Shown here in pieces: positions 27,601-55,040 of a stretch of DNA of 64,000 nt; the first letter of the stretch is position 1; every line of letters starts with the position of its first letter. The position numbers and the translations under genes were made by a program. Source of the stretch: Scilla litardierei (taxonomy: Eukaryota; Streptophyta; Magnoliopsida; Asparagales; Asparagaceae); contig CM061138.1 in NCBI GenBank assembly GCA_030789695.1, positions 179,901,051-179,965,050 of the forward strand, read 5' to 3'. Below the pieces are notes generated by a model. That model worked only from the letters and a program-made list of their open reading frames with translations. It made no database searches and was not told where the DNA came from.

Positions 27601-30600
27601 CGACGAGGTAATGGTCCATGTTTGTTTGGTGGCGAGGGGGACGGCGCCATGACTTATGGCCGACGAAGGAGAGAGTCTCCGTTCGTTCGGTGGCAAGGGA
27701 AGTAGCATCACGACTTACGGCCGACGAAGGAGAGCGTCCACGTTCGTTCGATGGCGAGGGGAGTGCCCCACGACTTATGACCGACGATGGAGAGGGTCCC
27801 CGTTCGTTTGGTGGCCGGAGGAGTGGTCTCTCGACTTACGGCCGACGAGGAGATGGTCTCCGTTCGTTCGGTAGCCGGAGGTAGCCCCTCGACTTACGAC
27901 TGACGAAGGAGAGGGTCTTCGTTCGTTCGGTGGCACGGGGAGCGACCCCCCTGACTTACGGTCGAAGAAGGAGAGAGTCACTGTTCGTTCGGTGGCGAGG
28001 GGAGCAGCCCCCCAACTTACGACCGACGAAGGAGACGTCGGTCCGCTGGGGAGTGGCCCCAGCCTTACAACCGATCCGGGTTTGGTCGACCTGTTGGGGG
28101 AGTTGCCCCAGCCTTCGACAAACCGTACGGGTCGGCATGCTTGGGGAGTTGCCCCAGCCTTACAACCGATCCGGTTTTGGTCGTCTTACTGGGGGTGTTG
28201 CCCCCAGTCTTACGAAAAACCGATGGGTCGGCCTGCTGGGAGAGTTGTCCCCGATTTTATAACCAATTCGAGTTTGGTTGGCCTGCTGGAGGAGTTGTCT
28301 CCAGCCTTACGGCAAACCGATGGATCGGCCTGATGGGGGAGGTGACCCCAGCCTTACGGCAAGCCCTACGGGTCGATATGCTGGGGGAGTTGTCCCTAGC
28401 CTTACAATCGATTCGGGTTTGGTTGGCCTGCTGGAGGAGTGACCCCCAGCCTTACGGCCGTATGTGTCGGCCTGCTGGGGGAGTTGCCCCCAGTCTTACA
28501 ACCGATCCGGTTTTGAGCGGCCTGCTGAGAGTGGTTCTCAGCCTTACAGCCGATCACAGCTCCAGCTTTTGTCTGGATCCTAGCTCCAGCTCCAGCTTTT
28601 GTCTGGATCCTAGCTCCGGCTCTGGCCCCCGTCTAGATCCTAGCTCCGGCTCCGGCTCCGGCTCCAGTTCTAATTCTCGTCTGGTCGGCGGCCTCACGCC
28701 CGATTCGGGTTGTGAAATTGGAGATCTGGAGATCTGCTTCGATTGGGGAAGCAGTGATGGGGGCTGGAGATTGCCGCATTAAACGCCAGATGCGGGCAGT
28801 GCGTGAGGAGTTTGACGTTGACGGAACGACCTTATGTGGTCGCCGACATGGCCCTCGGGCTCTCGTTGAGGCAGTCAGCAAGCTTTGAACGAAGGCAAGG
28901 ATGCATGGTAGGGCTTGGTCGGCAACTCTGCTCGCTTTTCGGAAGCTCGGTTGGCGAGGCTTTGGCGAGGCCCCTTGCAAGCTTAGTTGGCGAGGCTTTG
29001 CGTCACCGCCGCCTTATTCCGTCACCCGAGATCCAAGTCAGCACCGGCAAAGATCTCTTGATTCCTCGCGGCCGGGCCGGCTTGGAAGCAAGCTATCTCT
29101 CGCCTATCTCACCCGACACTTTTAAGGGCGAGCCTTCGCTTTTTGGATCGTCTTCTGCCTAATGCGGTACCCCCCGTTTTTGGTTCCCATCCCATTGGGT
29201 TTACCTTGTTCACAGGTTGACCTCTCAGTTTCTACATCGTCGCTTCAGCTTGATAATATCTTATCCATGCCGTTGGATGAACTTGGAAGGTGGATGTGGG
29301 CACGAGTCCCCCTGCGTATGTCCTCTTCCTAGGGCCCCCTCCACGACTCGGGTTTACCCCAAAAATGAAAAACTCGAGTCATTGGAAATTTTCCCATGTT
29401 GGTGCAGGTCGGCGGGCTCGGACTGAGGTAGGTCCGCAAGCTAGGCTGGTTGGACAGGGGCGAGCTCGGCTTTGAGTGTGGCTCGGCAGCTCATCATGGA
29501 GTGCGATTGGCAGCTCGACATGGATGCTTGGGCTCGGTAGCTCTGTAAGCTCAGCACCCCTAGGCTCGGTAGGATCGGCAACCTTGTAAGCTCGGTAGGA
29601 TCGCCGTCAAACTCGAAGACAAACCTCGGATCTGGCTCCGATTCTACTCATAAGTTAGTAGTATTGAGACGGTGTCACGGGTTCTCTAGAAAGACACAAT
29701 GCGCCTGGTTTATAGCTTTCTTGGTTAACGAAAAAGAGGAGTTGCCTGGCCCGTAATATAGATGATCGACAGATAAGAGGTTTTGAATTTGAATCCATAA
29801 ATGAAACATTTTCTCTGTTTTCTTCATTCTTTTTTCCCCTAAAAACCGAGAAGTGCCGTGGGGCACTTTTATTTGATTGCCAACACCCTATTTGTGTTGC
29901 ATTGTATATTAGCATGTGTAAAAATATTTACCTATGTAGCTGTTCGTCTGTTCTGTTTTCCAAAGGAGTCCGGCTGTAAACATTACCTAGATAGCCGCGA
30001 GGAGTTGATTGTTGATCTACCTTGATGTACATTGGAGCCAACAACCCAACTGCTTAAGCTTTTTGATGAAGTGGCTTTCTGACACTTGCTTTTCCACAAG
30101 CCTTTGTAGTGGTTCATCTCAGATGGCAGATCCATATGGGGTGACCACTAAATAGTTATGTTTTGATTACTAAAGAAATAAAAATAAATTAGTTGGCATT
30201 TCATGCAATTTCTATTGTATAACATTTTCATAAAATTTGTGTTCAAGTTATGTGTATTCTATTCAAACAGGTGAAAATCGGGCTTCGAGTTCTTACTCGA
30301 CCCATACCGGATCAACTACCTACAATCTATCGCACTCTTGGAGAGAACTACAACGAGAGGGTTCTTCCTTCTATCATTCATGAAACTTTGAAGGCCGTCG
30401 TAGCACAATACAATGCCAGCCAACTGATCACTCAAAGAGAGGTATGCTTTATTTGATCATTATACCAATTAATGCACCATTAAGCCTTGGTGAGCATTTG
30501 CAAACAATCATTTACAGAAGTGTCCATCTGGATGACTCTTGTGATATAAAAAGCTCCTTCAATGCATGTCATGGGCATCCAACCCCTATTATGAATTGTG

Positions 30601-35763: not shown

Positions 35764-36117
35764 AATTCGCCACTTATCTTGGGGTGTATGGCTCTTCTTT
35801 TTGTAAAAGAAAGATTTATTATGGGAAATTAACATTCGTTCATCTTGTCGTGAAGTACCTTTTTGTTTACATGGGATAGTATTGCTTGTTTACCCCCTCA
35901 ACAGCTCAGACTCATGCATGTGAAGAATGCTTTGTGTGAGCTGGTGAGCAACAAGCTTCGCTCTCAGCTTGAGGGTTTCATGCTCTGCGTTGTAGGAGGT
36001 TCACCTCATTTGATAAATCTAGCCCCACCCTTAAAGGTATAGCATGCCGATAAGTGAGCTGACACATGAGCTCAGATGGGTCATCCCCAGTCACATAGTT
36101 AGGTCGACCTGCGAAGG
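35764..36117. other. Non-coding spacer of the Tat-like element
   Basis: Lies between the antisense ORF and the tandem array. It has no ORF with family features. T-rich sequence at 35780-35880 could hold a 3' end for the antisense transcript, but no specific signal can be assigned. Confidence 0.5.
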
Positions 36118-36656
36118 GTATAGATAGTTCATCCTCGATCGTATTGCTCGGTCAGCCCGCGAAGGGGATGCCCCCTCTGTTCGTATAGATGAGCGGCCCA
36201 CCGCGAGGGTATAGCTATTTCATCCCCGATCGTATATCTCAGTCGGTCCGCGAAGGGGATGCCTCATCCGTTCGTATAACCGAGCGGCCCGCGAGGGTAT
36301 ATATAGTTTATCCCCGATCGTATAGCTCGATCGGCCCGCGAAGAGGATGCACTCTCTGTTTGTATAGCTCAGTCGGCCTGCGAGGGTACAGATAGTTCAT
36401 TCCCGATCATATAGCTCAGTTGGCCCGGGAAGGGGATGCCCCCTCCGTTCGTATAGCTAAGTGGCTCGCGAGAGTATAGATAGTTCATCTCCGATCGTAT
36501 AGCTCGGTCGGACCGCGAAGGGGATGCCCCTCTGCTCGTATAGCCAAGCGGCCCGCGAGGGTATATAGATAGTTTATCCCCGATCGTATAGCTCGGTCGG
36601 CCCGCGAAGGGAATGCCTCCTCCGTTCATATAGCCGAGCGGCCCGCGAGAATATGA
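36118..36656. repeat. Tandem repeat, about 88-bp unit, six copies
   Basis: Each unit contains TAGTTCATCCCCGATCGTAT, AGCTCGGTCGGCCCGCGAAG, GGGATGCCCCCTCCGTTCG and GAGCGGCCCGCGAGGGTAT. GATCGTATAG and CGGCCCGCG recur with few changes. The array sits between the gag end and the antisense ORF, as expected for Tat-lineage elements. Confidence 0.88.
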
Positions 36657-38073: not shown

Positions 38074-40490
38074 TGTAACGCCCCAGACACAGGTGCCGTC
38101 ACACTCTCAATAGTTTTGCATGTCTTGCAGATACTAGTGGGGTCAATATAGTTTAAGCATGAAATATTTAAGACAAAGATAACAATACTCATTTTATTCA
38201 ACCTTGAAAAGAAATACAGGGTTTAGGTAGAAAGGAAAACTACAACGCTCAACTAAAAAGATACTGAAAGAAAAAGACAAAGAAAGAGAAAACTCTCCTG
38301 GTAACACAAATAATCAAAAATCCGCGTCCTCAACATGAAAGCCAGACTCATCGTACTGCGGAGTCTCTCCTTCAAGCTGTGAGTCACCTGATGGAATTGA
38401 ACCACCGTTAATAAAGTAGATTGAATTCATATTAAACAGTTAATTAATTTATTTTACAGGAATTTAAAAGACACAAAAAGGAACTATAAAGGAAACTAAT
38501 GACCTGGCATGATTTTAAGTAACGGTAGGGATCAAGCAACTAATCAAAAGAATTATTGTTGTGACTTATAAGAGGAGAGCACGATCTGCAACATGAAGTC
38601 CACATTGGACCGCATGGTGCTACCCCGGGCCAAGTATAAAGGTCAACTGTACCAAGCACTCAGGATCCATAAAAGGACATTCTCCCAGATAGTGGCCATA
38701 ATAAGCATGTCTTCAATCGCTCCCACACCCTCTCAATTATAAGTTACCCCATAGCCGTGATGTCAAGTATAGTTCTAGTTCTAAGGTGTCAAGTATCATA
38801 TTCATGTAGTTGTCCCCTAAATTAGATAATTAGATAGTTATGCAAAACTATGTTCAGGATTGTCTTGTCTTGTACAAGAAAAAGCAGGCGTACCAATACA
38901 GTTGTATAATCTCATTGCATAACTTCTAATCATGTAATTTTGTATATTCAACAACTTAAACTTCCAGATTTAACATGTTTAGTCATATTATTCAGGAATC
39001 ATAACGTTCAACAATTAAAGTTGACAATTTCAGAAAGAATATATTTAAAGCACAATTTGTAAGTAAAATAAAGTAAACGACGAAAACATTGAATAATTTA
39101 TGGAAGATGACTCAATGGATCAGATTCATGTTTTTGGCACCATTATCGGGTTGTGGTCTACCTGCCTAGATGGGTTGCTTGACCCAAAATTTGCATTTAA
39201 AAATACCATTTTAGGCCAAAATCAACGTAATAAAAGACGTACATGTTCCCAGCTACTTAGACTGAACTTATGAGGGCAACAGAACTGGATTTATAAGGCA
39301 AACCGAACAAAATTTATAGGGACAGAACTGAATTTTAAAATGAACAAAAACTGATTTTATAAAGAAGAGTAACCGAGTTTATAAAGAACAAGAAAAACTG
39401 AAACTTCTAAAGGAGAACAACAGGACTGAAACTTATAAGAAAAGAAACTAAACTTATAAGAAAAGAAACTGAACCGAACTTGTAAAGGAGAAAAACAGAA
39501 CTGAAAAAGAAAAAGAACTGAACATATAGGGGAAAGAACAAAACTGAACATGCATACAGGTCCCCAACATGCAGGATCAGCAAGGAAAAAGGTCACAAAA
39601 CAGCAAGTGTAAAGGTCGCAGAATAACAAGTGGGCAGGAAAAGGTGATCACAGAAACCATGCAACTGATATCACACATAAAGGCTCGACATCCCACGACA
39701 ACTACCACTGTCAAGGGGAAAACCCCAACAACCACCTAACCGACTACCCACGGCCAATCCTTCCACCTCAGTGGCAAAAAACAACCAAATAAACAACACA
39801 AAGTCCAACACGAAAATTGCGAACGACGACAAGGAATGCCGTAAACCTAGATTGGTGCCAAAATATTCACGGAGGAAAAATCCTATCAAATTCTACATGA
39901 ATCATCATATCCATTCCAAAAATAAAATAATTAAAAGTTCAATAGGGATCGAATCTACCCGAGACGAAGTTTACGCGAGAAAAATTAAGAAATCCGAGCG
40001 TCCAAGGGCAAAACCGAAACTCCAGAGCAAAAACCGAAGATCCCAATAGCAAAAACTGAAACCCTAGAGCAAGATCCGAGCCCCAGGAGCAGAACCGAAA
40101 TCCCAAGAGCAAGATCCGAAAGATTTTGTAGAGGAAAAACAATTTTCGCTTACCTTCGCCCTAGGAGAAAACGGCTCATACAAATAGGAAGAGAGAGAAC
40201 GTGTGAGAGGAAGCGGACGATCTTGCTGTTGAGATTTTTGAAAAAATCCAGAGGAGAGAGATCGGTGCGGATTTTGCTAGGGTTTCAAATCGGAGTCATC
40301 GATTGTGTTCGCCGTTGCTCGTGAGGGGAACAAAAAGGAGCATCGGGTTCGTGCGGGGTGAGATAAGATGAGTGGGTTATAAAAAAATTAGTTAGGTTAT
40401 TTAAATACAAAGGGAAAACCCCTTACGGGCCTGGGGCTTTAAAACAAAAGGGAAATGGAAAAAGAAAAAGATGAGAAGTTGGGCCTTTAC
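38074..40490 (-). repeat. 3' LTR of the minus-strand Tekay element
   Basis: About 2417 bp; on the + strand it begins TGTAACGCCCCAGACAC and ends GGGCCTTTAC. It matches 52199-54591 along its length with small indels. The end next to the internal region has lost one base compared with the other LTR (TAAAGG against TGTAAAGG on the minus strand). It contains an A-rich run of AGAACTGAAC words near 39320-39550. Confidence 0.9.
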
Positions 40491-41401
40491 TCCTTATACA
40501 CCTTCAAAGAAATTCCGTTCAAAGAAAGCACTAATCGGTGAATAAGTACAGATATCGCTTCTTCATCTCATCTTCTTGTTCCCAAGTAGTCTCTCCTGGT
40601 GAATCACGACGCCACATCACTTTGACCAAATCCATTATCTTGTTCCCGAGAGCCCTCTGTCGACGATCAATAATCTTCACTGGTTGCTGTTCATAGCTAA
40701 GATCTGGTAGTACTGTGATCTCTGAATGATCGACCATGCGAGCCGGGTAACCTACATACTTTTGAAGCTGAGATATGTGGAACACATTATGCACCACTTT
40801 CAGAGATGGAGGCAGTACAAGTTTGTATGCCACCTCGCCCATATGCTCGAGTATGTTGAAAGGCCTAATGCACCGTGGACTAAGTTTTCATTTGCGACCA
40901 AAACGAATCATGCCTCTATTTGGTGAAATCTTTAGAAATACATGATTTCCAGGCTGAAATTCCTGATGCCGTCTTTGGATCTGTCCAGTGCTTGTATCGG
41001 TCTTGTGCCACCTGTAATCTCTCTCTGATACTTCGTACCACATCGACTGCTTCTACAATCATCTCGGGCCCAACCAATTCTCTATCGCCGACATCGTCCA
41101 AGCTCAAAGGTGAACGACACTTCCTTCCATACAAAGCAGCAAATGGTGCCATTCCAATACTTGCTTGATGACTGTTATATGCAAATTCTACAAGGTGTAG
41201 ATGGTCTTTCCACGACCCCTTAAAATCCAACATGCATGCCCGTAACATGTCCTCCAAAATCTGGATGGTATGCTCTGACTGTTCGTCCATCTGAGGATGG
41301 TATGCTATGCTAAACTTCAACTGTGTACCTAACTTCTCCTGTAGACTATTCCAGAAATGCGAAGTAAACCGGGTGTCTCCATCTGAAACTATACTCACTG
41401 G
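40491..41401 (-). pseudogene. pol 3' part of the minus-strand Tekay element: integrase end and chromodomain
   Basis: Reading down from 41401, the integrase core resumes with VSIVSDGDTRFTSHFWN, where the conserved DRD reads DGD. Then come a TDGQ-like region changed to [33 protein letters not shown] and the KDFT linker. A frameshift near 40900 separates the C-terminal block (VFHISQLQKYV, LSYEQQPVKIIDRRQRALGN, TTWEQEDEMKKRY), the Tekay-type chromodomain region. The piece starts exactly at the target-site copy ACTGG of the inserted gag-only element. Confidence 0.88.
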
Positions 41402-41793
41402 TGTTGAGTATTGATTCCCCGGATTTGGTTTTGGATGATGAGCAAACATAAATATATCGTGAACTAACACTTTGTGAGCGCAATTATGGAGATCGTCGCC
41501 AAAATATTACGTACATCTAAAGCGACTTCTCAATACGCATGATCGAGTGCCTGAAGCTTCGTTGAAGCTCAAGGAGCAATATTGAAGTCAAGAGGAATGA
41601 AGATTGAAGCTTTGAAGACGGTTCGTCATGTATTATTTATTGTCTTCTAGCTTCATAGTTAGAATGTTAAGCCTTGAGTAGGACTTACAATATAATCTTC
41701 ATTTCGCTCATGTCTTAGAGCTAGGATTATCATAAAAGCCATTAGAAACTTTCCCGAAGCCTATCGCTTCTTCCCTCGGCTTCTAGTGCATGT

Positions 41794-42323
41794 TAGTTGG
41801 TTCACGAAGAACACCCAACAGACTAGATGACGATCTAGTCGGTCGGCAATTCCTCTTGAACCGACTAGAATGCCTTGCTCATTTCAGCTCATTCCATATT
41901 GGTCAATTGGTCGGTCAAAGAAGAGTCACCGACCGACTAGATGACGATCTAGTCGGTTAGGAATCCTTCTTAGACCGACTAGTTGAGCTTGCCTCTGAAC
42001 AGCCTGAGTTACTGTTTCGAGTTAGTCGGTCAAAGAACGTTTGTCGACCGACTAGTTGAGAAACTAGTCGATCATCATTTGTTCTTAAACCGACTAATTC
42101 ATCTTGTAGTCAACCTACTCTATTTCGACTGTTAGTCGGTCAAAGATCATTCCCCGAACGACTAGTTGTGAAACTAGTCGGTCGGCAAGTCTTCTTAGAC
42201 CGACTAGTTGTCATCTCCTGTACTTCGACCTTTTGGGTGTTCAACCGTTAGTCGGTCTACGTTATATCACCGATCGACTAGTTGATGAACTAGTCGGTCA
42301 GTGATCCTTCTTTGACCGACTAG
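41794..42323. promoter_or_regulatory. U3 array of inverted-repeat modules in the gag-only element, 5' LTR copy
   Basis: Ten modules CTAGTCGGT-N-ACCGACTAG are grouped into five doublets that start at 41794, 41908, 42023, 42133 and 42249, with 8-bp spacers (ATGACGAT, TTGAGAAA, TTGTGAAA, TTGATGAA). The first module is degenerate (TAGTTGG...CCAACAGACTAG). The layout, spacing and parts of the linkers match the array of the Tekay element at 16623-17148. The array ends 54 bp before the TATA box. ACCGAC in the arms is the DRE/CRT core. Confidence 0.8.
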
Positions 42324-42377
42324 TCTGGTTCAGAATAGAGCCGTTGGGATCTTTTTGAACTCGTTTTTCCTTGCCCC

Positions 42378-42385
42378 TATAAATA
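42378..42385 (+). promoter_or_regulatory. TATA box of the gag-only element (5' LTR)
   Basis: TATAAATA in the context CCCCTATAAATAGAATCC. The same sequence occurs in the 3' LTR at 47490-47497. Confidence 0.75.
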
Positions 42386-43120
42386 GAATCCTGATTCATT
42401 TCTTGAAGGGGTTAAGCAATATATTAGAGATATTTTCAGATCAAAAGAGAAGAGCAATCAACTCTATTTCCAAGCTCTCTCTTCTCACAAGAATCTCTCC
42501 CTCAAGTTCTTGAGCCCTAAATCCTCAAGAGAGATTCTCTCCATTGTGAGCCATTCAAGCTAGAAGCTTGATTCTAGGTCACCATCTCCACCCCAGGCTT
42601 CCATTGCTGGTCATCTTCTTGAAGCTAGGGTTTGGTGCCATCTTCCTCCATCAAAATCCCACTTGCCCTAATTTGGTAAGAATACTCAAGGCATAGGTGT
42701 TTTGTTGGTAAGCATTTCATTTCATTTACATTCGTTATTTGAATTGTATACTCTCGGTTGTGAGAGTTTGCGTGATCCCGGGTTGTGGGATTCACGGACA
42801 TCCTTTGTAGTTAGTTTGCACTTGCGTGGTTTTCGCAAGTGGGCATATTGGAAATCTTGAGTTAGGGTTTCTAACTCAAGTATCCGGAGGGGATCCGGGT
42901 GGTTGGGACGTAGGATCACCGGGAACAAGTCGGGGAGACTTGGGTGGATCCGAACCCATTAAACCATTTGTTTGCGTTTGCATTTATTCTTGTTGATCGT
43001 TGTTATTCCGCATTGTTGTTTGTTAATTGCACGATAATTAGGAATAACTCTCCCTATTATTTAAAAGTACTATTCACCCCCCCTCTAGTACATGTGCAGT
43101 AGCTATACAGGGCACTACAA

Positions 43121-43134
43121 TTGGTATCAGAGCC
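43121..43134 (+). other. Primer-binding site of the gag-only element (initiator tRNA-Met)
   Basis: TTGGTATCAGAGCC begins one base after the LTR and is complementary to the 3' end of plant initiator methionine tRNA, the usual primer of Ty1/copia elements. Confidence 0.9.
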
Positions 43135-43169
43135 AAGTTCAAAGCTACACATAGCCAAAGTTGAGAGCT

Positions 43170-45469
43170 ATGACGAACAACGACTACAACGTCTTCAAGA
43201 ACCGCGATGGTGCTTCTTCAGTTATGGAAGGACTATCCTCCGTCAGGCCTCCACACTTCAACGGTACCAACTACGGGTACTGGAAATGCCGGATGCAAAT
43301 TTTCCTCCGGAGCGCTTCACTATGGAGAGCCACCATGACGGAGTATGTCGAGCCTTCCGAAGAAGATTTCGCAAAGTGGACTCCCGCGGAGGTCGCCGCG
43401 GAAGTAGCCAATGCCAAGGCAATGAATGCCTTGAATTGTGCGTTGGAGCCCGAGGACTTCAACAAGATATGCACATGTAAGAGTGCATATCAAATATGGA
43501 ACCAACTCCTCATTTTGCACGAAGGATCGAGTACGGTAAAAGACTCTAAACTCGTCGTTGCTAACAAAGAATTTGAGTTGTTTCATATGGAGCAGGGTGA
43601 AACCATGAAGGAGTACTATGCTCGCTTCGTGGATATATCCAACGACTTGGAAGCTCTTGGGAAAACCTACACCCAAAAGGAGAAATGCTCAAAGATTATC
43701 GACGGTCTTCCATCATGTTGGGAAAAGCGTACCTTCGCCATCGAGGAAGGTAATGACATGAATAAATATACCGTCGTACAACTAATGGGTACCTTGTTGT
43801 CTTATGAGGTACGCAAGGATAGTAAGATCCGGATGAGGGAAAAGATGAAGGCGTACTTGAAGCAAGACGAGCCAAAGAAAAAGGCAATTGCATTCAAGGC
43901 CGCTCCATCTACCGATGATGAAGAATCGGAAAACGAATTGGACATGGAATCCATTGCCCGTATGGCAAGGAAGTTCAATCGATTCCTCCGAATAGGTAAA
44001 TCTTTGAATAAATCTAAAGTTAGTTCGACTAATGCCTCTACTCCCGTGTGTTATAAATGCATCAAGCCAGGACACATCAAATCGGATTGTCCTCTCTACA
44101 AACACAAGGAGAAGGGGAAGGCATCTAAGTACGACAAGTCGAGAAAGCACAAGAAAGGGCTTGTTGGCACATTCACCGACTCCGAAGAGGATTCCTTAAG
44201 TGGAGAGTCGGATGATGGAAGAGTGGAGAAAGCAAAAATTTGCTTCATGGCTAATGATGAGGCAAAAGGTCAAAAGTCCTCCTTCGATGATAGCGAGGAT
44301 GAAAGCGAGGATGGTAGCGAGGATGAAGGCGGAGAACCTACTATAGAAGAAATGAGGTTAGCTAACCAAGAAATTTGGTCTAAATTTACTAAATTAGTAG
44401 ATATAATAAGACCAAAGATGAACTTGTTAGCCTCCAAACCTCTCCTAAGTCTATCATCACCAATAATGACACCATTGTTGAGACACTCGCCAATGAGAAA
44501 GCAAGTTTGCTTACTCATAATGGCTTGTTGAGAAATGAGGTGAAGAACCTCAAATCTCAACTTGAGCATGTTCATTTTGAGAAATCGGATGAACACAAGA
44601 TGGCGGATTTGACGTCTCAAAACTCAACCTTGAGTATTGAGAATAAGAATCTCAAATCTCGTGTTTATGCACTCACATCGCAAGTATCCACTTTGGATGC
44701 TTCGATGCATTCTCTCAAAGAGAAATATGAGTGCACGTTAGGCCGTATCAATGATTTCAATAAAGGTAAGGGCCATTTGGATAATATCCTAAATGACTTA
44801 CTTCCGGCCAAACACCACATTGGCTTGGGGTATAAGATGGGAGACTCATCCAAATCGTCTACAACCTTTGTTAGGCCTACTTCCGACGCCTCAACGAGTG
44901 GGAGCAAACACCCCATTGGTAGTTCTCCTACCAATAGTGCTTCCACTTCGTACACACCCCCGATTGGAAAGAAACCCACTTTGGGTGGACCTCCAAAGAG
45001 GGGTCATGCATTTTTGTACTCACATGCTATGCCACGTAGGAACACACATCCTACTCCACCGGTTCATATTAATGATGATTTTTATGCTCCGCACCCACGA
45101 GCACGTGCAAACACTCATATGAGACACCCACATGCACGTAAACATGCTCATGCATATCCTAATGCTTATGTTCAAACATCTCATCCACATGTGCATGCCT
45201 ACTCTCATAATCATCCTCATGCATACACACATCATCATACTATTGCTAGATCCCATGCTCCTAGGCCACATGCACCACATAGAAATCAAACTTTTGTGCA
45301 TGCAACCACTAGGAAGAGGATTCCCAAAATGTACACTATTTGGGGTCCCAAAAACACTAGCGATGATGCTATGAATGTTTATGTGAAATCATATATTAAT
45401 GATGTTATTTTGAATGATGATTATGTTGGGAAGTCAAGTTCCTTTTGGACTTGGTTTCCGAAGGGTTAG
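43170..45469 (+). pseudogene. gag of the gag-only element, one frameshift
   Basis: The ATG at 43170 starts MTNNDYNVFKNRDG. A copia-type gag follows (PPHFNGTNYGYWKCRMQIFL near residue 27, then an UBN2-like helical region to about 230), a CCHC knuckle CYKCIKPGHIKSDC (about residue 293), and acidic Ser/Glu/Asp repeats. The frame shifts by one base between about 44410 and 44450. The second part, open to 45469, encodes a coiled coil (LRNEVKNLKSQLEHVHFEKS, NSTLSIENKNLKSRV), a His-rich stretch (about 45055-45300) and a C-terminus ending SSSFWTWFPKG. The long coiled-coil tail is typical of Sirevirus gag. With the frameshift mended by a sister copy, the gene would be intact. Confidence 0.85.
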
Positions 45470-46513
45470 TTCCTTTAACCCTTCAATGCTTGGTACCATG
45501 AGTTTATGATCATGTTATGGGTACCAAGGCATGTGTTTATAAAATTGATTTTGATTATATTAATTTATGGGTTACAATAATTTTTATTTCGTATTTCAAA
45601 TTTGTTGTCTAACCCATTGGATCCAAAAGGATTTTTGGATACCAAAATGAAGTTTTCTAGATTCAATCCGCTTTGGGATACCAACCCTACCAACTCCTCG
45701 ATTTGCAAAGACTTTCATTCAAACGGAGTTGATGGTGCTTGATCGATGCACCAATGTAGGGGGAGCTTAATGTTGTAAGTATGATATTACATTTGGTATC
45801 CATGTGTGATTGTATGCATGCATAGATAGAATTTTTACTTTTGATATCAATTCGATACATTTAGTATTGGTATTCTCACTGCATTTTGGTCTCTGATATT
45901 GACTATCGTCACTTGACGATTATTTTGATTTAATAGCTTTAGTTGTATGAAAACATAGAATTGTTTTCCATGCACTAATATAGCTACAAATGTTGATATT
46001 GGAGAATAAATTCCTTTCATCAATGCGTGAATTTACAATTGGTATTTTGATGACTTCATTTTTTTTTTCATTTTTCGTTTTTCGACTAAGGTCTCCTTGG
46101 CACACCTTTAATATGTTTTGGTATTTTTACTTTGGTGACATTGGACCGAGGTCGTATTCTTCGACTCCCGTGATTCATGTATTATTTGGCCATGATTTGT
46201 TATCATTGACTCCCTCCCGCACTTTTTGGATTATGCCAAAGGGGGAGAGATATAATAATGACGTGCTAAATGATAGTTTAGCATGAATCTAATTTGATAT
46301 GTTAGATTTAGGGGGAGTTAAGAAAATATAAATGTATTTCAAATTCGATAACTGGATTTGTATTTTTAATTTTCTCGCCTGATTGATGCATTTGTTTATT
46401 ATTTCATATGGAACTAATGTGTCATCAATGCAGGGGGAGTAAGTAAATTTCATTTAGTACATTATTATTGATTATTATTTATGTTGGTTTGTCATCACCA
46501 AAAAGGGGGAGAA
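45470..46513 (+). other. Non-coding 3' region with repeated purine tracts
   Basis: No reading frame resembles pol or an envelope-like gene. GGGGGAG occurs at about 45758, 46240, 46310, 46433 and 46505. The last one, AAAGGGGGAGAA, abuts the 3' LTR and is the likely polypurine tract. Multiple purine tracts before the 3' LTR are a reported Sirevirus trait. Confidence 0.75.
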
Positions 46514-48231
46514 TGTTGAGTATTGATTCCCCGGATTTGGTTTTGGATGATGAGCAAACATAAATATATCGTGAACTAACACTTTGTGAGCGCAGTTATG
46601 GAGATCGTCGCCAAAATATTACGTACATCTAAAGCGACTTCTCAATACGCATGATCGAGTGCCTGAAGCTTCGTTGAAGCTCAAGGAGCAATATTGAAGT
46701 CAAGAGGAATGAAGATTGAAGCTTTGAAGACGGTTCGTCATGTATTATTTATTGTCTTCTAGCTTCATAGTTAGAATGTTAAGCCTTGAGTATGACTTAC
46801 AATATAATCTTCATTTCGCTCATGTCTTAGAGCTAGGATTATCATAGAAGCCATTAGAAACTTTCCCGAAGCCTATCGCTTCTTCCCTCGGCTTCTAGTG
46901 CATGTTAGTTGGTTCACGAAGAACACCCAACAGACTAGATGACGATCTAGTCGATCGGCAATTCCTCTTGAACCGACTAGAATGCCTTGCTCATTTCAGC
47001 TCATTCCATATTGGTCAATTGGTCGGTCAAAGAAGAGTCACCGACCGACTAGATGACGATCTAGTCGGTTAGGAATCCTTCTTAGACCGACTAGTTGAGC
47101 TTGCCTCTGAACAGCCTGAGTTACTGTTTCGAGTTAGTCGGTCAAAGAACGTTTGTCGACCGACTAGTTGAGAAACTAGTCGGTCAACATTTGTTCTTAA
47201 ACCGACTAATTCATCTTGTAGTCAACCTACTCTATTTCGACTGTTAGTCGGTCAAAGATCATTCACCGACCGACTAGTTGTGAAACTAGTCGGTCGGCAA
47301 GTCTTCTTAGACCGACTAGTTGTCATCTCCTGTACTTTGACCTTTTGGGTGTTCAACCGTTAGTCGGTCTACGTTATATCACCGACCGACTAGTTGATGA
47401 ACTAGTCGGTCAGTGATCCTTCTTTGACCGACTAGTCTGGTTCAGAATAGAGCCGTTGGGATCTTTTTGAACTCGTTTTTCCTTGCCCTTATAAATAGAA
47501 TCCTGATTCATTTCTTGAAGGGGTTAAGCAATATATTAGAGATATTTTCAGATCAAAAGAGAAGAGCAATCAACAATATTTCCAAGCTCTCTCTTCTCAC
47601 AAGAATCTCTCCCTCAAGTTCTTGAGCCCTAAATCCTCAAGAGAGATTCTCTCCATTGTGAGCCATTCAAGCTAGAAGCTTGATTCTAGGTCACCATCTC
47701 CACCCTAGGCTTCCATTGCTGGTCATCTTCTTGAAGCTAGGGTTTGGTGCCATCTTCCTCCATCAAAATCCCCCTTGCCCTAATTTGGTAAGAATACTCA
47801 AGGCATATGTATTTTGTTGGTAAGCATTTCATTTCATTTACATTCGTTATTTGAATTGTATACTCTCGGTTGTGAGAGTTTGCGTGATCCCGGGTTGTGG
47901 GATTCACGGACATCCTTTGTAGTTAGTTTGCACTTGCGTGGTTTTCGCAAGTGGGCATATTGGAAATCTTGAATTAGAGTTTCTAACTCAAGTATCCGGA
48001 GGGGATCCGGGTGGTTGGGACGTAGGATCACCGGGAACAAGTCGGGGAGACTTGGGTGGATCCGAACCCATTAAACCATTTGTTTGCGTTTGCATTTATT
48101 CTTGTTGATCGTTGTTATTCCGCATTGTTGTTTGTTAATTGCACGATAATTAGGAATAACTCTCCCTATTATTTAAAAGTACTATTCACCCCTCCTCTAG
48201 TACATGTGCAGTAGCTATACAAGGCACTACA
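46514..48231 (+). repeat. 3' LTR of the gag-only element
   Basis: 1718 bp, same ends as the 5' LTR, followed by the target copy ACTGG. Confidence 0.95.
46906..47435. promoter_or_regulatory. U3 array of inverted-repeat modules in the gag-only element, 3' LTR copy
   Basis: Same arrangement as 41794-42323. Here the sixth and seventh modules keep better arms (CTAGTCGGTCAAC, CACCGACCGACTAG) than the 5' copy, while the second reads CTAGTCGATCGGC. Confidence 0.8.
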
Positions 48232-50647
48232 ACTGGGACCCTATGTACTTTCACAATTTAATCCATGTATCTCTTAGCAAGAGTCTCTGTAGATTGTCCA
48301 ACCCTGAAAGGGATAAAGTGGACCGACTTGGTTAATCGATCAACAATCACCCAAACAACGTCATGTTACTTTTTGCGCTTTGGAAGTCCCGTCACGAAAT
48401 CCATCGTGATATGTTGCCACTTCCATTCATTAATGGACATGTGCTATAACAGACCGGCAACGCGGTGATGTTCAACCTTCACCTGTTGACATACTATGCA
48501 TCTGGTCACACTTGGCGCTACGCATCTCTTCATTCCATGCCACCAATAATTTCATCGTAGATCTTGTTACATCTTGGTGCCTCCTGGATGGATGGATGGA
48601 GTACGAGAAACTGTATGCTTCCTTTACTAGCTCTTCTCTGACATCTCATGAAGGTATGCATATTCTACTGCCATATTTCAGAGACCCATCTGCATGTATC
48701 TTGAATTTTGACCTCTGCACCGCCAATGCCATGTTTCTGATCCGCTGAAGCTTTGCATCTCCTGTCTGATCGGCCTTGATTCTGTCTACCAGTGTTGACT
48801 GTATCTCCTTGTTCATCAATGATGAGGTCAAACCTGGTAATACCACATCTATTTCCATTTCACGGATCTTCTGCTATAGCCTCCACTGCGTCGTAAGCGT
48901 AATCACTCCTGGAAGCCGACTTAAAGCATCAGGTACCATATTAACCTTCCCAGGATGGTACTGAAGGTCAATGTTGTAATCCGCCATGAGCTCGATCCAT
49001 CTCCGTTGTCGTTGGTTCAGATCCTTTTGAGTGAAGATGTATGTTAAGCTCTTATGATCCGTATATACCTTCACACACTCCCTAAGTAGAAAGAGTCCAG
49101 ATTTTCAAGGCAAATATTACTGCCGCCAACTCAAGATCATGAGTGAGGTAATTCTTCTCGTGATTCTTCAATTGTCTTGATGCATATGCGGCTACGCGTC
49201 CGTGTTGATGAAGCACACATCCAAGACCTTTACCAGATACGTCGCAAAACACTTCAAAAATCTCCCATACGCTCTGGAATAACAAATATCGGTGCTGTCG
49301 TCAACCGCTTCAATTCTTGAAAAGCATCGTTACAAGTCTTCAACCACACATGCATTACATCCTTCCTTGTCAACTGTGTCATGGGCTCTGCGATCCTCGA
49401 AAAAACCTAGATGAATCTTCTGTAGGAACCAGCTAGTCTCAAGAAGCTTAGAATCTCTGATATTGTCTTAGAGACCGGCCAATTGTGAACTGCTGCAACC
49501 ATTTCTGGGTTCACAGAGATTCCTTCTCCCGAAACCGTGGCATAGAAATACCACTTTGTTCAACCAGAACTCGCACTTACTATAGTATAGCTTGCTCCGC
49601 CTCAATGTTTCTAGAATCGTTCTCAAATGCTCGACATGCTTCTGTGCATTCTTCAAGTATACCAATATATTGTCAAGATACACCACTACAAACTTGTCCA
49701 GATACTCATATAATATTTGGTGCATGAGATTTATGAATATTGCAGGTGCATTAGTCACACCAAACGTCATCACCATGAACTCACAGTGTTCGTATCTAGT
49801 GCTAAATGTTGTCTTATGCACATCTTCTTTCTTTACCCTCAACTGATGATAGCCGGTTTTCAAGTCCAATTTTAAAAAGGCACATGCTCCTCCAAGCTGA
49901 TCAAATAAGTCGTCGATATGTGGAATGTAATACTTGTTCTTCACCGTAAGCTTGTTTAGTTCCATGTAATCAACGCACATCCGTTTGGGTCCATCTTTCT
50001 TGCTCACCAATAATATTGGAGCGCCCCAAGGAGACATACTGGGACGTATCTACCCTTTCTTCAAGAGATCATCCAACTGTATCCGCACTTCATACAACTC
50101 AGATGGTGACATGCGGTAAGGCTATCTGGAATAAGGCTGAGCACCAGGCACTAGCTCAATTGCAAACTCAACTCTGTGGTCTGGAGGTCACCCAGTAAGT
50201 TCATCCGGAAAAACATCCAGGAATTCTCGAACTACCTCTGGCTTCTTCTCTATCTCAATATCCATGACAGTTGCTGCTGTCGGTTTAGCTCTGAATTTTG
50301 TCGGTCTCTTTGTTTTGACAAATTCAAATTTGAGTTGGGTTGGCATGTCAAACACCACTCTTTGCGACATTCAATCGTGGCATAGTGTACCTCCAACTAA
50401 TCCATCCCGAGGACAACGTCGAAACTTGGCATGTCGATGGCGATAAAATCCGATGGCAGTTTGTGTCCGCATATGTCCACACGACAGGAAAAACACACAC
50501 TAGTAGTTGTCAATACTCCACTACCCGTGTTAACGCCCCAACAAGAGTCAAGGGGCGAAACGGGGATGTGCTAATCGACAAACCGCTTCGACATGAAGCA
50601 ATGTGAAGCTCCTGAGTCGAATATGGCGATGATGGGTCTACTGGCAA
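48232..50647 (-). pseudogene. pol 5' part of the minus-strand Tekay element: protease, RT, RNase H, integrase N-terminus
   Basis: Reading down from 50647: the protease motif IFDSGASHCFMS lies near 50600-50630 and a VFPDELTG linker near 50190. RT at 49468-50037 has [20 protein letters not shown] and [14 protein letters not shown], but its catalytic loop reads YLDN where YVDD or FIDD is expected, so one metal-binding Asp is lost. RNase H follows ([36 protein letters not shown]), then [18 protein letters not shown] and the integrase N-terminus ([20 protein letters not shown]). Stops and frameshifts separate the blocks. It ends at the target copy ACTGG of the gag-only element. Confidence 0.9.
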
Positions 50648-50745
50648 CTAGTATAATACCGACGGTCACATATACTAAGTTTAAGCATATATATACTAAT
50701 GTATGAAAACATAAAAAATAAACGATAAATCTGTAAACTACATAC
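50648..50745 (-). other. Putative gag-protease intron (98 bp, phase 1) in the minus-strand Tekay element
   Basis: On the minus strand, GTATGTAGTTTAC follows CAAGTTATCACGG and the segment ends ATTATACTAG before TTGCCAGTAGACC. Removal keeps the frame into PIIAIFDSGAS. The interior is very AT-rich. An alternative acceptor (GCCAG, 7 bases further) would break the frame. This is the third element with an intron at this position and phase. Confidence 0.6.
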
Positions 50746-52093
50746 CCGTGATAACTTGGCCATTGGCATCTGCCTCTTCCGCAGTCTTAGTAAAAACCTG
50801 GCGTTTAGATGATGATGAGGCTTGAGACCTTGCCTGTTGATACACCTTTTGCTGAGGTGGAAGTGGAGCTCTACGTTGATTGCTCCCTGCTGGGGCTGGA
50901 GCTGGAGCGAAAACTGGTCATTAGTCTGGGCTAGGGCAGCTGGTCTCTATCCCCTTCGCTGGCAATCTCTCGCAGCATGATCATTGGCTCCACAGACCAT
51001 GCAAAAATTCGGATAAGACCGACATTTTGGTTTGATGTGACCCGACTTGTTCCAGTAGTGCCAGATAGGCGGGTCGCCTGGGTTGCTGGGGTTGCTGGGG
51101 TGGTGCATGCCTCTTAAACTGTGTCTGATGCATAGGCCTGTGAAATTGCTTAGTGGGAGGAGCATGGGGCTTTTTATGATGCACTGCAGAAGCTGTCGAA
51201 GATGGAGGTGGTCGTTGTGGGGCAGCCACCTGGCGCTCTCGTGCTCGCTCCCGCTGTACATACTCGTACTCTTGAGCCGTGGAGAGCATGTCAGCATGGG
51301 TTTTCAGTTTGAGCCCGACTAGCTTATCACAAATATCGATGTCTAAGTCCTTCTGGACTCTCTTAGCTCGGGCCAGGGAAGTGGACACCACGTCCTTAGC
51401 AAACCTGCTGAGCTTAGAGAACTCAGCATCGTATTCTTCCACAGTCATGGAACTTTGCTCTAGTTTCATAAATTGTTCCTCGAGCTCCATTTTCGCCTCA
51501 GGTGAAAAGAATTGGGCATTGAATTCCTCTTTAAATGTAGCCCAAGAGATCGGCTGTGGTAAACGCTCCTCCGCAGAATCCCACCATAACATGACATCCT
51601 TGGTCAACTGCAGCTTTGCCATATCTACCTAGGAATTTGCAGGAGCTTGTACCGTCTTCAGCACGTTAGTAGTGGACCGCAACCATTCCTCTTCATCTAG
51701 AGGATCCTCCCGTCCAGTGAAGATTGGTAGGCGTAGTGACCGAAACTCTTGTACTCCCACTTCTCGCATGGCTTCCTGTCGCATGGCTTCCTGTCGTATG
51801 GCTTGAACCATTTCTCGCAGTGCTCGATCAGATATCTGGTGCACCATCGGAGGTTGATCAGTATCATCATTGTTATAGTTGCTGACGTTGTTTGCATTGG
51901 GGTCAGCTTCAGGGTTGGTATTGTTGACGTTCCCGTTAACGATCTGGTTGTCGACTTCATTGTTGGCGACGGGATATTCATTATTGGTGACATGGTTCCC
52001 ATTTTTATTCAAATTCCTCTCTATCTCTGCGTTGGCAGTAGCAGGATTTGTTCCAGTGGTGGTACGTGCATGTCGGTTAAACACTTTCGACAT
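50746..52093 (-). pseudogene. gag of the minus-strand Tekay element (decayed)
   Basis: The ATG at 52093 (minus strand) starts MSKVFNRHARTTTG. An Asn-rich stretch precedes the capsid domain (LPIFTGREDPLDEEEWLRST). A TAG at 51629-51631 replaces a Trp-like position, and the capsid continues at once (AKLQLTKDVMLWWDSAEERL, SMTVEEYDAEFSKLSRFA). A later frameshift near 51080 leads to the zinc knuckles, WNKSGHIKPKC (degenerate) and CMVCGANDHAARDC (intact). A Gln/Pro-rich linker runs to the splice donor at 50745. A short direct repeat (RQEAMRQEAMRE) is a local duplication of a 15-bp unit. Confidence 0.88.
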
Positions 52094-52198
52094 TCTGTAT
52101 TCAAGGATTCAGTTTATAATTTGAGTATCTTATTCATATTTTCCGTTTATCTTATACTATTCACGAGGTGGTTGCGCGGACTTGCATGTGCCACCAAT
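52094..52198 (-). other. Leader and primer-binding site of the minus-strand Tekay element
   Basis: On the minus strand the LTR end GGCGTTACA is followed by ATTGGTGGCACATGCAAG, a variant of the GGTGGCCCATGCAGG site of the other Tekay-like elements. Confidence 0.6.
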
Positions 52199-54591
52199 TG
52201 TAACGCCTCAGACACGAGGGTCGTCACACTCTCAATAGTTTTGCATGTCTTGTAGATACCAATGAAGTCAATATAGTTTAAACAGGAAATATTTAAGACA
52301 GATAAAAATACTTATTTTATTCAACCTTGAAAAGAAATACAGTGTCTAGGCAGAAAGGAAAACTACAATGCTCAACTAAAAAGATACTGAAAGAAAAAGA
52401 CTAAAAGAAAGAGAAAACTCTCCTGGTAACACAAATAATCAAAAATCCGCGTCTTCAACATTAAAGTCAGACTCCTCGTACTGCGGAGTCTCTCCTTCAA
52501 GCTGTGAGTCACCTGATGGAATTGAACCACCGTTAATAAAGTAGATTGAATTCATATTAAACAATTAATTAATTTATTTTATTTTAAAAGACACAAAAAG
52601 GAACTATAAAGGAAACTAATGACCTGGCATGATTTTAAGTAACGGTAGGGATCAAGCAACTAACCAAAAGAATTATTGTTGTGACTTATAAGAGGAGAGC
52701 ACGATGTGCAACATGAAGTCCACATTGGACTGCAGGGTGCTACCCCGGGCCGAGTATAAAGGTCAACTGTACCAAGCACTCAGGATCCATAAAAGAACAT
52801 CCTCCCACATAAGGGCCATAAGCATGTCTTCAATCGCTTCCGCACCCTCTCAATTATAAGTTACCACAAACCCGTGATGTCAAGTGTAGTTGGTCTAGTT
52901 GTAGGGTGTCAAGTATCATATTCATGTAGTTGTCTCCTAAATTAGATAATTAGATAGTTATGCAAAACTATGTTCAAGATTGTCTTGTCTTGTGCAAAAA
53001 AAAGCAGGTGTACCAATATCGTTGTATAATCTTATTGCATAACTTCTAATCACGTAATTTAGTATACTCAACTTAAACTTCCAGATTTAACATGTCTAGT
53101 CACATTATTCAGGAATCATAACGTTCAACAATTAAAGTTGACAATTTCAGAAAGAAGATATTTAAAGCACAATTTGTAAGTAAAATAAAGTAAACGACGA
53201 AAACATTGAAAAATTTATGGAAGATGACTCAATGGTTCAGATTCATGTTTTTGGCACCATTATCGGGTTTTGGTCTACCTGCCTAGAGGGGTTGCTTGAC
53301 CCAAAATTTGCATTTAAAAATACCATTTTAGGCCAAAATCAACCTAATAAAAGATGTACATGTTCCCAGCTACTTAGACTGAACTTATGAGGGCAACATA
53401 ACTGGATTTACAAGGCAAACCGAACAAAAATTTATGGGGACAGAACTGAATTTTAAAAAGAACAAAAATTGATTTTATAAAGAACAATAACTAAGTTTAT
53501 AAACAACAAGAAAAACTGAAACGTGTAAAGGAGAACAGGACTGAAACTTATAAGAAAGAAAAGAAACTGAACCGAACTTGTAAAGGAGAAAACAGAACTG
53601 AAACTAATAAGAAAAAGAACTGAACTTTTATAGGGCGGGGAAAGAACACAACATGCATGCAGGTCCCCAAATGCAGGATCAGCCAGTAAAAGGGTCACAG
53701 AACAGCAAGTGTAAAGGTCGCAGAACAGCAAGTGGGCAGTAAAAGGTGAGCACAGAAACCATGCAGTGGATATCACACATAAAGGCTCGACATCCCACGG
53801 TAACTACCGCCGTCAAGGGGAAAAACCCAACAACCATCTAACCGACTACCCACGGTCAAACCTTCCACATCGACGACCAACCACAACCAAATAAACAACA
53901 CAAAGTCTAACACGAAAATAGCGAACAATGACAAGGAACGCCGTAAACCTAGATTGGTGCCAAAATATTCCTCGGACGAAAAATCCTCTCAAATTCTACC
54001 TGAATCTTTATATCCATTCAAAAAATAAAATAATTAAAAGTTCAATAGGGATCGAATCAACCTGAGACGAAGTTTACGCGAGAAAAATTAAGAAATCCCA
54101 GTGTCCCAGGGCAAATCTGAAACTCCAGAGCAAAAACCGAAAATCCCAGTAGCAAAAACTGAAACCCTAGAGCAAGATCCGATCCCCAGGAGCAGGACCG
54201 AAATCCCTAGAGAAAGATCCGAAAGATTTTGTAGAGGAAAAACAATTTTCTCTTACCTTCGCCCTTGGAGAAAACAGCTCATACAAATAGGAAGAGAGAT
54301 AACGCATGGGAGGAGGTGAAAGATCTCGCTGTTGAGATTTCTGCTCCGAAAAATCCGGAGGAGAGATCGGCGCGGATTTTGCCAAGGTTTCAAATCGGAG
54401 ACGCCCGATTGTGTTCGCCGCTGCTCGCGCGGGGAACAAATAGCGGCATCTGGTTCGTGCGGGGTGAGATGAGATGAGTGGGTTATAAAAAAATTAGTTA
54501 GGTTATTTAAATACAAAGGGAAAACCCTTTGTGGGCGTTGGGCTTTAAAACAAAAGGGAAAAAGAAAAAGATGAGAAGTTGGGCCTTTACA
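52199..54591 (-). repeat. 5' LTR of the minus-strand Tekay element
   Basis: 2393 bp; on the + strand TGTAACGCCTCAGACAC to GGGCCTTTACA. Indels against the other LTR include loss of TTTATTTTACAGGAATTT-like sequence near 52578. It is followed by the target copy TCCGC. Confidence 0.92.
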
Positions 54592-55040
54592 TCCGCCCTA
54601 GTGATGAGGTGGTCGAGGTCACGTGGCGGTCGCTGATGCAGCCATTTCACCAAGTCTTCACAATAGATTCCTTACGTGAGAGCTGCAATGACCGTATGAT
54701 TAGTGCAGCCCTCGACGTTCAGCCTTTCATTATTGAAGCCCGCGAAGAAGTCCCACATCGTTTCTCCTTCACTCTGCTCCAGAGTGAACAGATGGCCTAA
54801 ACTTTGTTTCCGCCTGCGCCCCGCCATAAAGTGCCTGTAAAAAGCTTGGGATAAGTTCTTGAAAGACACGATGCTACGACTGGACAACACATATTATTCA
54901 TTTGCTGCTCCGGTCAACGTCGTGTGGAAAGCTCGACAGAGGAAAGGTTCGTCTGCATGTGTATTTCCATCACACTCTTGTACTTTCGGACATGCTCGTG
55001 AGGATTGTCCTTGCCATCATATTGGTTCAGAGGAGGCATC
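54592..55040 (-). pseudogene. gag of the Tat-like element, middle fragment
   Basis: On the minus strand it encodes PPLNQYDGKDNPHEHVRKYK and SIVSFKNLSQAFYRHFMAGR, then FTLEQSEGETMWDFFAGFNN, the classical capsid landmarks of Tat/Athila gags. It is bounded on both sides by later insertions with target copies GCATC (55036-55040) and TCCGC (54592-54596). A stop and a frameshift lie near 54910. Confidence 0.85.

Follow-up and report, generated by a model that had tools for sequence, protein, structure and literature searches.

The 64-kb window (the whole stretch of DNA analysed here) contains two recent LTR elements, designated T (16432-26345) and C (41402-48231), that carry an array of palindromic doublets in the U3 region of their LTRs. 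As T is of the Ty3/gypsy type and C of the Ty1/copia type, the locus raises the question of how elements of two superfamilies came to have the same array, and from which side it came. Modular change of U3 within retrotransposon families, for example in Tnt1/Retrolyc1, is familiar, and U3 evolves apart from the genes. In contrast to Tnt1/Retrolyc1, the module described here is common to two superfamilies; it is this crossing that is unusual, module-wise change of U3 being already known within families. No report of U3 transfer between Ty1/copia and Ty3/gypsy was found in the literature searched, which covered few subscription papers.

The structure of C was determined as follows.

41402-43119, + strand, 5' LTR of C (target site duplication (TSD) ACTGG at 41397-41401; ends TGTTG...CTACA)
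41793-42323, + strand, array of five palindromic doublets in the 5' LTR
43118-43133, + strand, Sirevirus 16-bp junction CA/ATTGG/TATCAGAGC (LTR end, spacer, primer site), exact match
43155-44531, + strand, copia-type gag ORF (PF14223, CCHC knuckle)
46504-46511, + strand, terminal AGGGGGAG tract, 10 bp before the 3' LTR
46514-48231, + strand, 3' LTR of C (TSD ACTGG at 48232-48236)
46905-47435, + strand, the same five-doublet array in the 3' LTR

The two LTRs (1718 bp) are 98.7% identical over 1723 aligned columns (K2P 0.013). No copia-type pol was found in the two ORFs scanned for domains; C is gag-only, and thus its placing among the Sireviruses rests on non-coding marks. The 16-bp junction motif is that reported for Sireviruses (PMC2829016). 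In addition to the terminal AGGGGGAG tract, four others start at 45758, 46240, 46310, and 46432, and no further copies beyond these five were found on the + strand of the window. An inverted repeat borders the last tract, its left arm ending at 46503 and its partner lying inside the 3' LTR. By its primer junction, its AGGGGGAG tracts, and this inverted repeat, C is classified as a gag-only Sirevirus. After the last tract, C has AA/TG rather than the AT/TG attachment site, which was reported in 20 elements as a common feature and was not stated to be universal (PMC2829016). The first arm of the array is located 391 bp into the LTR, and the array, about 530 bp long with a CpG observed/expected ratio of 1.23, precedes the TATA box; this agrees with the place of the Sirevirus CGG-CCG boxes, which begin 200-400 bp inside the LTR and precede TATA. 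The C family is multi-copy and gag-only, with several near-full copies (41402-48231 in the window; pairs in L021, L024, and L030); its enzymes are therefore likely borrowed from a full Sirevirus.

The features of T, and of an older element, D, into which C was inserted, are listed below.

16432-18976, + strand, 5' LTR of T (TSD TCAGC at 16427-16431)
16622-17148, + strand, array of five doublets in the 5' LTR of T
19124-23755, + strand, coding part of T in separate ORFs (gypsy gag PF03732, protease, RT and RNase H, integrase zinc domain, Tf2-type SH3, sub-threshold chromodomain)
23801-26345, + strand, 3' LTR of T (TSD TCAGC at 26346-26350)
23991-24517, + strand, the same five-doublet array in the 3' LTR of T
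38074-54594, - strand, D, older Tekay-like element hosting the C insertion (LTRs at 38074-40493 and 52199-54594)

The LTRs of T (2545 bp) are 97.9% identical to each other (K2P 0.022). The domains of T are in the Ty3/gypsy order (PF03732, PF00078, PF17917/PF17919, and PF17921), and the match to the chromodomain PF00385 (E 9.8e-4, 19.4 bits) is below the cut-off of 25.1 bits. We took the label 'Tekay-type' from a sequence-only reading of this locus and from the domain layout. Within the window, D is the nearest relative of T, with 47-85% protein identity in five pieces (tblastn). The array was not found in the LTRs of D, each of which has one arm-like match versus the 20 arms of an array. A minus-strand gypsy element has a tandem duplication in its RT/RNase H region (56932-58190; period 433 bp, 95% matches).

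The LTRs of C and T have in common a colinear block of about 640 bp, composed of about 105 bp of unique sequence and the five doublets.

16516-17149, + strand, shared U3 block (unique part and array), 5' LTR of T
17196-17203, + strand, TATTTAAA box of T, outside the shared block
41684-42324, + strand, shared U3 block (unique part and array), 5' LTR of C
42378-42385, + strand, TATAAATA box of C, outside the shared block

In self-BLAST, 16545-17149 and 41715-42324 were 72.0% identical over 621 columns (E 1e-38), and the 3' LTR copies of T and C were 72.7% identical over 622 columns (E 2e-45). The true start of the block lies about 30 bp upstream of the BLAST limit. The sequence-only reading had described an alignment of about 100 bp upstream of the array, and we confirmed it in both LTR pairs: the local score of 16516-16619 against 41684-41790 was 39 (shuffle maximum, 30) and that of the 3' LTR pair was 47 (shuffle maximum, 31), scores that 0/1000 shuffles reached in each case. 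Similarity beyond the 9-bp arms, on which the proposed transfer depended, is thus present. Over the first 120 bp past the last arm, the T/C score was reached by 652/1000 shuffles, and over the remaining downstream parts of the LTRs by 18/300; shuffle-controlled alignment of T and C from the TATA region onward gave no clear similarity. The distance noted originally was also reproduced, the array being 54 bp before TATAAATA in C; its counterpart in T is 47 bp before TATTTAAA. The TATA regions and genes of T and C differ, and so do their LTR ends and primer sites, as had been said of the latter two and of the gag type. The expression 'promoter exchange' claims too much: T and C have the enhancer-like part in common, and not the TATA region.

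All 20 doublets in the window have the layout 9-16-9-8-9-16-9 (arm-spacer-arm-centre-arm-spacer-arm), and variation in length between them is limited to the linkers. Taken as a whole, each doublet (about 76 bp) forms a single imperfect palindrome. The doublet periods are 114/115/110/116 bp in C and 113/114/109/115 bp in T, in agreement with the first description. The spacers match their own mirror at 83/160 positions (letter-shuffled mean 40.6, sd 5.4, maximum 59); pairing left and right spacers doublet by doublet gave no match (own mean 8.3 versus 7.9 of 16 for others). When the arms were masked, the T and C arrays aligned with scores of 124 and 129, versus letter-shuffled maxima of 32 and 29 (300 shuffles each), and 2/480 permuted unit orders in each LTR pair scored at or above the order as found. 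That order ranked 1 of 24 for the linkers in both LTR pairs, and 3 and 2 of 120 for the spacers in the two pairs, because a swap of units 2 and 3 scores slightly higher. The claim that the unit order is preserved thus stands for largely colinear units, with the exception of units 2 and 3, whose order is ambiguous in the T/C pair taken alone.

We surveyed the host genome (3.68 Gb) for further copies. The C array has at least 40 scored copies at 96-100% among 5,460 first-look candidates, and the T block has at least 40 at 93-100% among 10,936. The 21 stretches fetched (L010-L030) represent 20 sites, L011 lying inside L028; all were picked from the list of C-type arrays and thus form a non-random sample, selected for holding such an array. 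A diverged Sirevirus LTR with the array is present at 6/20 sites (L013, L017, L018, L021, L027, and L028), a two-doublet array outside the LTR and beside an env-position ORF at 2/20 (L016 and L017), and a Tekay-type LTR with the array at 2/20 (L012 and L029). The array therefore occurs in two Sirevirus LTR groups besides that of C. The LTRs of C and C2 are homologous on both flanks of the array, as expected of relatives; thus, the block has long been resident on the Sirevirus side. The extra array in L016 is located between the end of a copia RNase H and the env-position ORF. We named this RNase H from its letters and the neighbouring RVT_2, as a Pfam search of the stretch gave no match; the adjoining L032, an array-bearing copia element, has RVT_2 (E 7e-79) and an integrase. 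The env-position ORFs (L017:510-2219 and L016:7519-8562) match PF20167 (putative plant transposon protein), with the hit of L017 exceeding the cut-off and that of L016 falling short of it, and their position suggests an env-like gene. Protein searches gave three unnamed hits for gag and none for the env-position ORF, and three proteins searched against NCBIfam had no match.

On the Tekay side, the LTR of L029 continues into L031, and the two belong to one Tekay-type element, whose identity to T is 76% in gag, 91% in pol, 87% in integrase, and 89% in the C-terminal part. Its second LTR, on the other side, is 99.1% identical over 2357 bp. This second LTR is followed by GGTTTTGTTGGTG, the same sequence as after the 5' LTR of T (L033:1-513 with L031); thus, LTR and internal parts may form a tandem LTR-internal-LTR-internal row. 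The third Tekay-type LTR, in L012, is truncated where the contig ends. The arrays of L012 and L029 have three doublets each. Their best assignment to the doublets of four Sirevirus arrays was in order in 7/8 comparisons, with up to 33/40 spacer letters equal; an in-order assignment of three doublets has a chance of 1 in 6, and the eight comparisons are not independent. When T was compared with four Sirevirus arrays, the best in-order assignment was never at the top (it ranked 2, 3, and 9 of 120 in three of them and 16 of 720 in the fourth). In pairings with units 1, 4, and 6 of L028, the two three-doublet arrays agree at 106 and 104 of 108 arm positions and at 85 and 89 of 120 spacer positions. 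The upstream unique part of T and L012 aligned with those of C, C2, and L028 C2 in 6/6 comparisons at scores that 0/200 shuffles reached, and the upstream part of L029 aligned weakly with the Sireviruses (35, 5, and 1 of 200 shuffles). For the downstream parts, shuffles reached the score in every one of nine Tekay/Sirevirus comparisons; the lowest counts, 2 and 7 of 200, were both from short matches of L029 (with C and C2). The TATA-like box follows the array after 43-47 bp in the three Tekay-type LTRs and after 54 bp in C and C2, and the intervening letters differ.

We constructed an unrooted tree of 17 blocks, consisting of 4 Tekay rows from three elements and 13 Sirevirus rows, five of which were hand-picked C copies from the fetched loci. 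The Tekay and Sirevirus blocks formed a group each (99/99), recovered in all 200 bootstrap trees. The grouping of the sampled Tekay arrays fits a single transfer before the sampled families split. In an earlier tree without L012 and L029, T was placed beside C2 (84/84), and the addition of these two sequences moved the Tekay group to the base. Among the Sirevirus arrays, the K2P distance between C and C3 was 0.47, with the C3 row long and uncertain; arrays on that side thus diverge as much as those of the two superfamilies do (0.37-0.44 in four pairs).

Thirteen Sireviruses, from both monocots and eudicots, were reported to contain palindromic CGG-CCG boxes (Bousios et al. 2010, PMC2829016). 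In the LTR, the boxes begin at 200-400 bp and precede the TATA box, and further copies are located before env; they are absent from the classic copia elements of that study, and stress-related factors were suggested for them from database matches (PMC2829016). As the boxes are a published Sirevirus trait, the array would be ordinary in a Sirevirus and foreign in Tekay. From its distribution and this published specificity, we infer the direction Sirevirus to Tekay, as in the sequence-only reading; the Sirevirus marks, the env-side doublets, and the absence of the array from D support it, and, as the tree is unrooted, the direction stays inferred. The block transfer between Ty1/copia and Ty3/gypsy is itself supported by homology outside the arms and by units that are colinear and not independently amplified. 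Probably, then, a Sirevirus U3 block was transferred once into the ancestor of several Tekay families and would act there as an enhancer on a Tekay core promoter. The block, which resembles a native repeated-motif array of the Sireviruses, would have entered the Tekay-type ancestor as a whole, and the acquired array would serve as the enhancer while the core promoter would remain that of Tekay. One possible route is template switching by reverse transcriptase between co-packaged RNAs. The genomic RNA carries U3 at its 3' end, and thus two template switches inside U3 would yield such a product. The other is insertion of one LTR in the other (nesting), followed by trimming; as L012 and L021 have Sirevirus and Tekay-type LTRs that lie within or directly beside one another, this route is as plausible as template switching.

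If this is true, elements that belong to different superfamilies can exchange a U3 enhancer. Several families could then answer one host signal, and shared enhancers would offer a handle on why certain families expand jointly. Palindromic boxes, which are used as a mark of Sireviruses, could also occur in gypsy LTRs.

Three other origins of the shared block have to be weighed. A transfer in reverse, from Tekay to the ancestor of these Sireviruses, would be compatible with the unrooted tree, which splits the two sides cleanly, and Del/Tekay LTRs from several groups of grasses possess their own CpG-rich 5' region, which is variable (PMC4029996). We consider it unlikely: the boxes were described from 13 Sireviruses and are absent from the classic copia elements compared with them (PMC2829016), the Sirevirus side here too has the array in both the LTR and the pre-env position, and D lacks it. 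In addition, the rice Tekay element Retrosat2 has its TATA box about 230 bp into the LTR (PMC3485330; lineage, PMC4029996). Quite unlikely, in our estimation, is a third source, another transposon or a host sequence, that gave the block to both sides independently. No donor junction was found when the block ends were inspected by eye, and maize Helitrons are reported to carry a Sirevirus palindrome (PMC10760457), so that such palindromes travel in other elements. Against a third source, the homology of the C and C2 LTRs on both array flanks indicates long residence in Sireviruses, and a doublet is also present in the env-side linker. Independent amplification of the arrays from a short common binding site could appeal to the many Sireviruses that form palindromic arrays with different letters (PMC2829016) and to the imperfect unit order of T. 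The upstream unique sequence common to T and C (0/1000 shuffles), the scores of the arm-masked arrays (124 and 129 versus maxima of 32 and 29), and the one-by-one pairing of the L012 and L029 doublets with Sirevirus doublets all stand against it; on these alignments it is already disfavoured, and we regard it as very improbable.

The preferred reading, a Sirevirus block acting as an enhancer in Tekay, leads to the question of what the arms do. In the two T/C LTR pairs, 169 and 172 of 180 arm positions are identical, compared with 120 and 123 of 200 spacer positions and 100/137 and 99/136 linker positions; the arms are more conserved than the spacers (Fisher p 1e-15 and 5e-17). Arm positions 1-8 are kept in 17-20 of 20 arms and the ninth in 11-14. 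The arms were probably held during family activity and drift after insertion; homogenisation inside the arrays could also explain the conservation. The arm core that is kept is ACCGACTA, which contains ACCGACNA. The latter is present in 68/80 arms, in the form ACCGACN followed by A, G, or C (DREB2A-type DRE), and the four arrays hold 68/82 of the ACCGACNA sites and 0/11 of the RCCGACNT sites in the window; as the arm is one repeated letter string, the 68 sites count as one fact, not 68. The DREB2A-specific target core is reported as ACCGACNA/G/C, and the DREB1 target core as A/GCCGACNT (PMC3146422). As the arms keep ACCGACNA, the array would offer many binding sites to DREB2-like AP2/ERF activators, which answer drought, heat, or salt. 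We favour this putative DREB2-like platform, at slightly less than an even chance on its own; the enhancer role of the array is likewise putative. More tentatively, a DREB2-type stress enhancer of Sireviruses may have been captured as a ready-made block by a Ty3/gypsy chromovirus and maintained by selection across several families of both superfamilies. Two unrelated genomic parasites would then follow one host signal, with bursts rising together, and the borders of superfamilies, closed for genes, would be open for enhancers. Heat-shock elements in the spacers were considered and rejected (GAANNTTC is absent from the four arrays, and TTCNNGAA occurs in them 4 times). ONSEN-type LTRs are heat-activated and driven by a host stress factor. 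Compared with these, the arrays have DRE-like arms, not heat-shock elements, and their stress induction is putative.

Alternatively, the array may act mainly through RNA hairpins of U3, as a source of small RNAs or as a packaging signal, the block still being shared. The predicted RNA fold is far stabler than that of letter-shuffled sequences (z -13.5 for T and -19.5 for C; 40 shuffles each), and palindromes of maize Sireviruses are reported as hotspots of small-RNA mapping (PMC5311732 and PMC10760457). We find this main role doubtful: conservation falls on the 9-bp arms, with position 8 kept and position 9 free, which resembles a protein site more than a stem, and hairpins that feed silencing would leave the retention of the block by Tekay unexplained. 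The hairpin or small-RNA role and the activator-site role may coexist with each other.

The array resembles the RM boxes of Sireviruses (PMC2829016) in its palindromic CGG-CCG core, its multiple copies ahead of TATA within the first LTR half, its extra copies before env, and its richness in CpG. Unlike the 13 RM motifs listed in that paper, which do not include the arm ACCGACTAG, the arms here are in fixed four-arm doublets, and they are also found in Ty3/gypsy LTRs. The Del/Tekay LTRs of Cruz et al. 2014 (PMC4029996), whose 5' CpG island is variable, are likewise Ty3/gypsy LTRs with a CpG-rich, fast-changing part; the main text of that study contains neither 'palindrom' nor 'tandem' and mentions no palindromic array and no copia origin.

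A search with a 26-bp palindrome pattern gave 0 matches in viral contigs and a lone copy in one prokaryote contig, from a Chamaesiphon (cyanobacterial) MAG (L001, JANYIT010000178.1:1848-1873). The window has another G+C-rich tandem array at 27400-28560 (periods of about 61 and 97 bp), whose units have short palindromes and CGG/CCG ends and for which no LTR partner was seen in the window. A further tandem array at 36115-36649 has a period of 89/177 bp and consists of GATCGTATAGCTCGGTCGGCC-like units.
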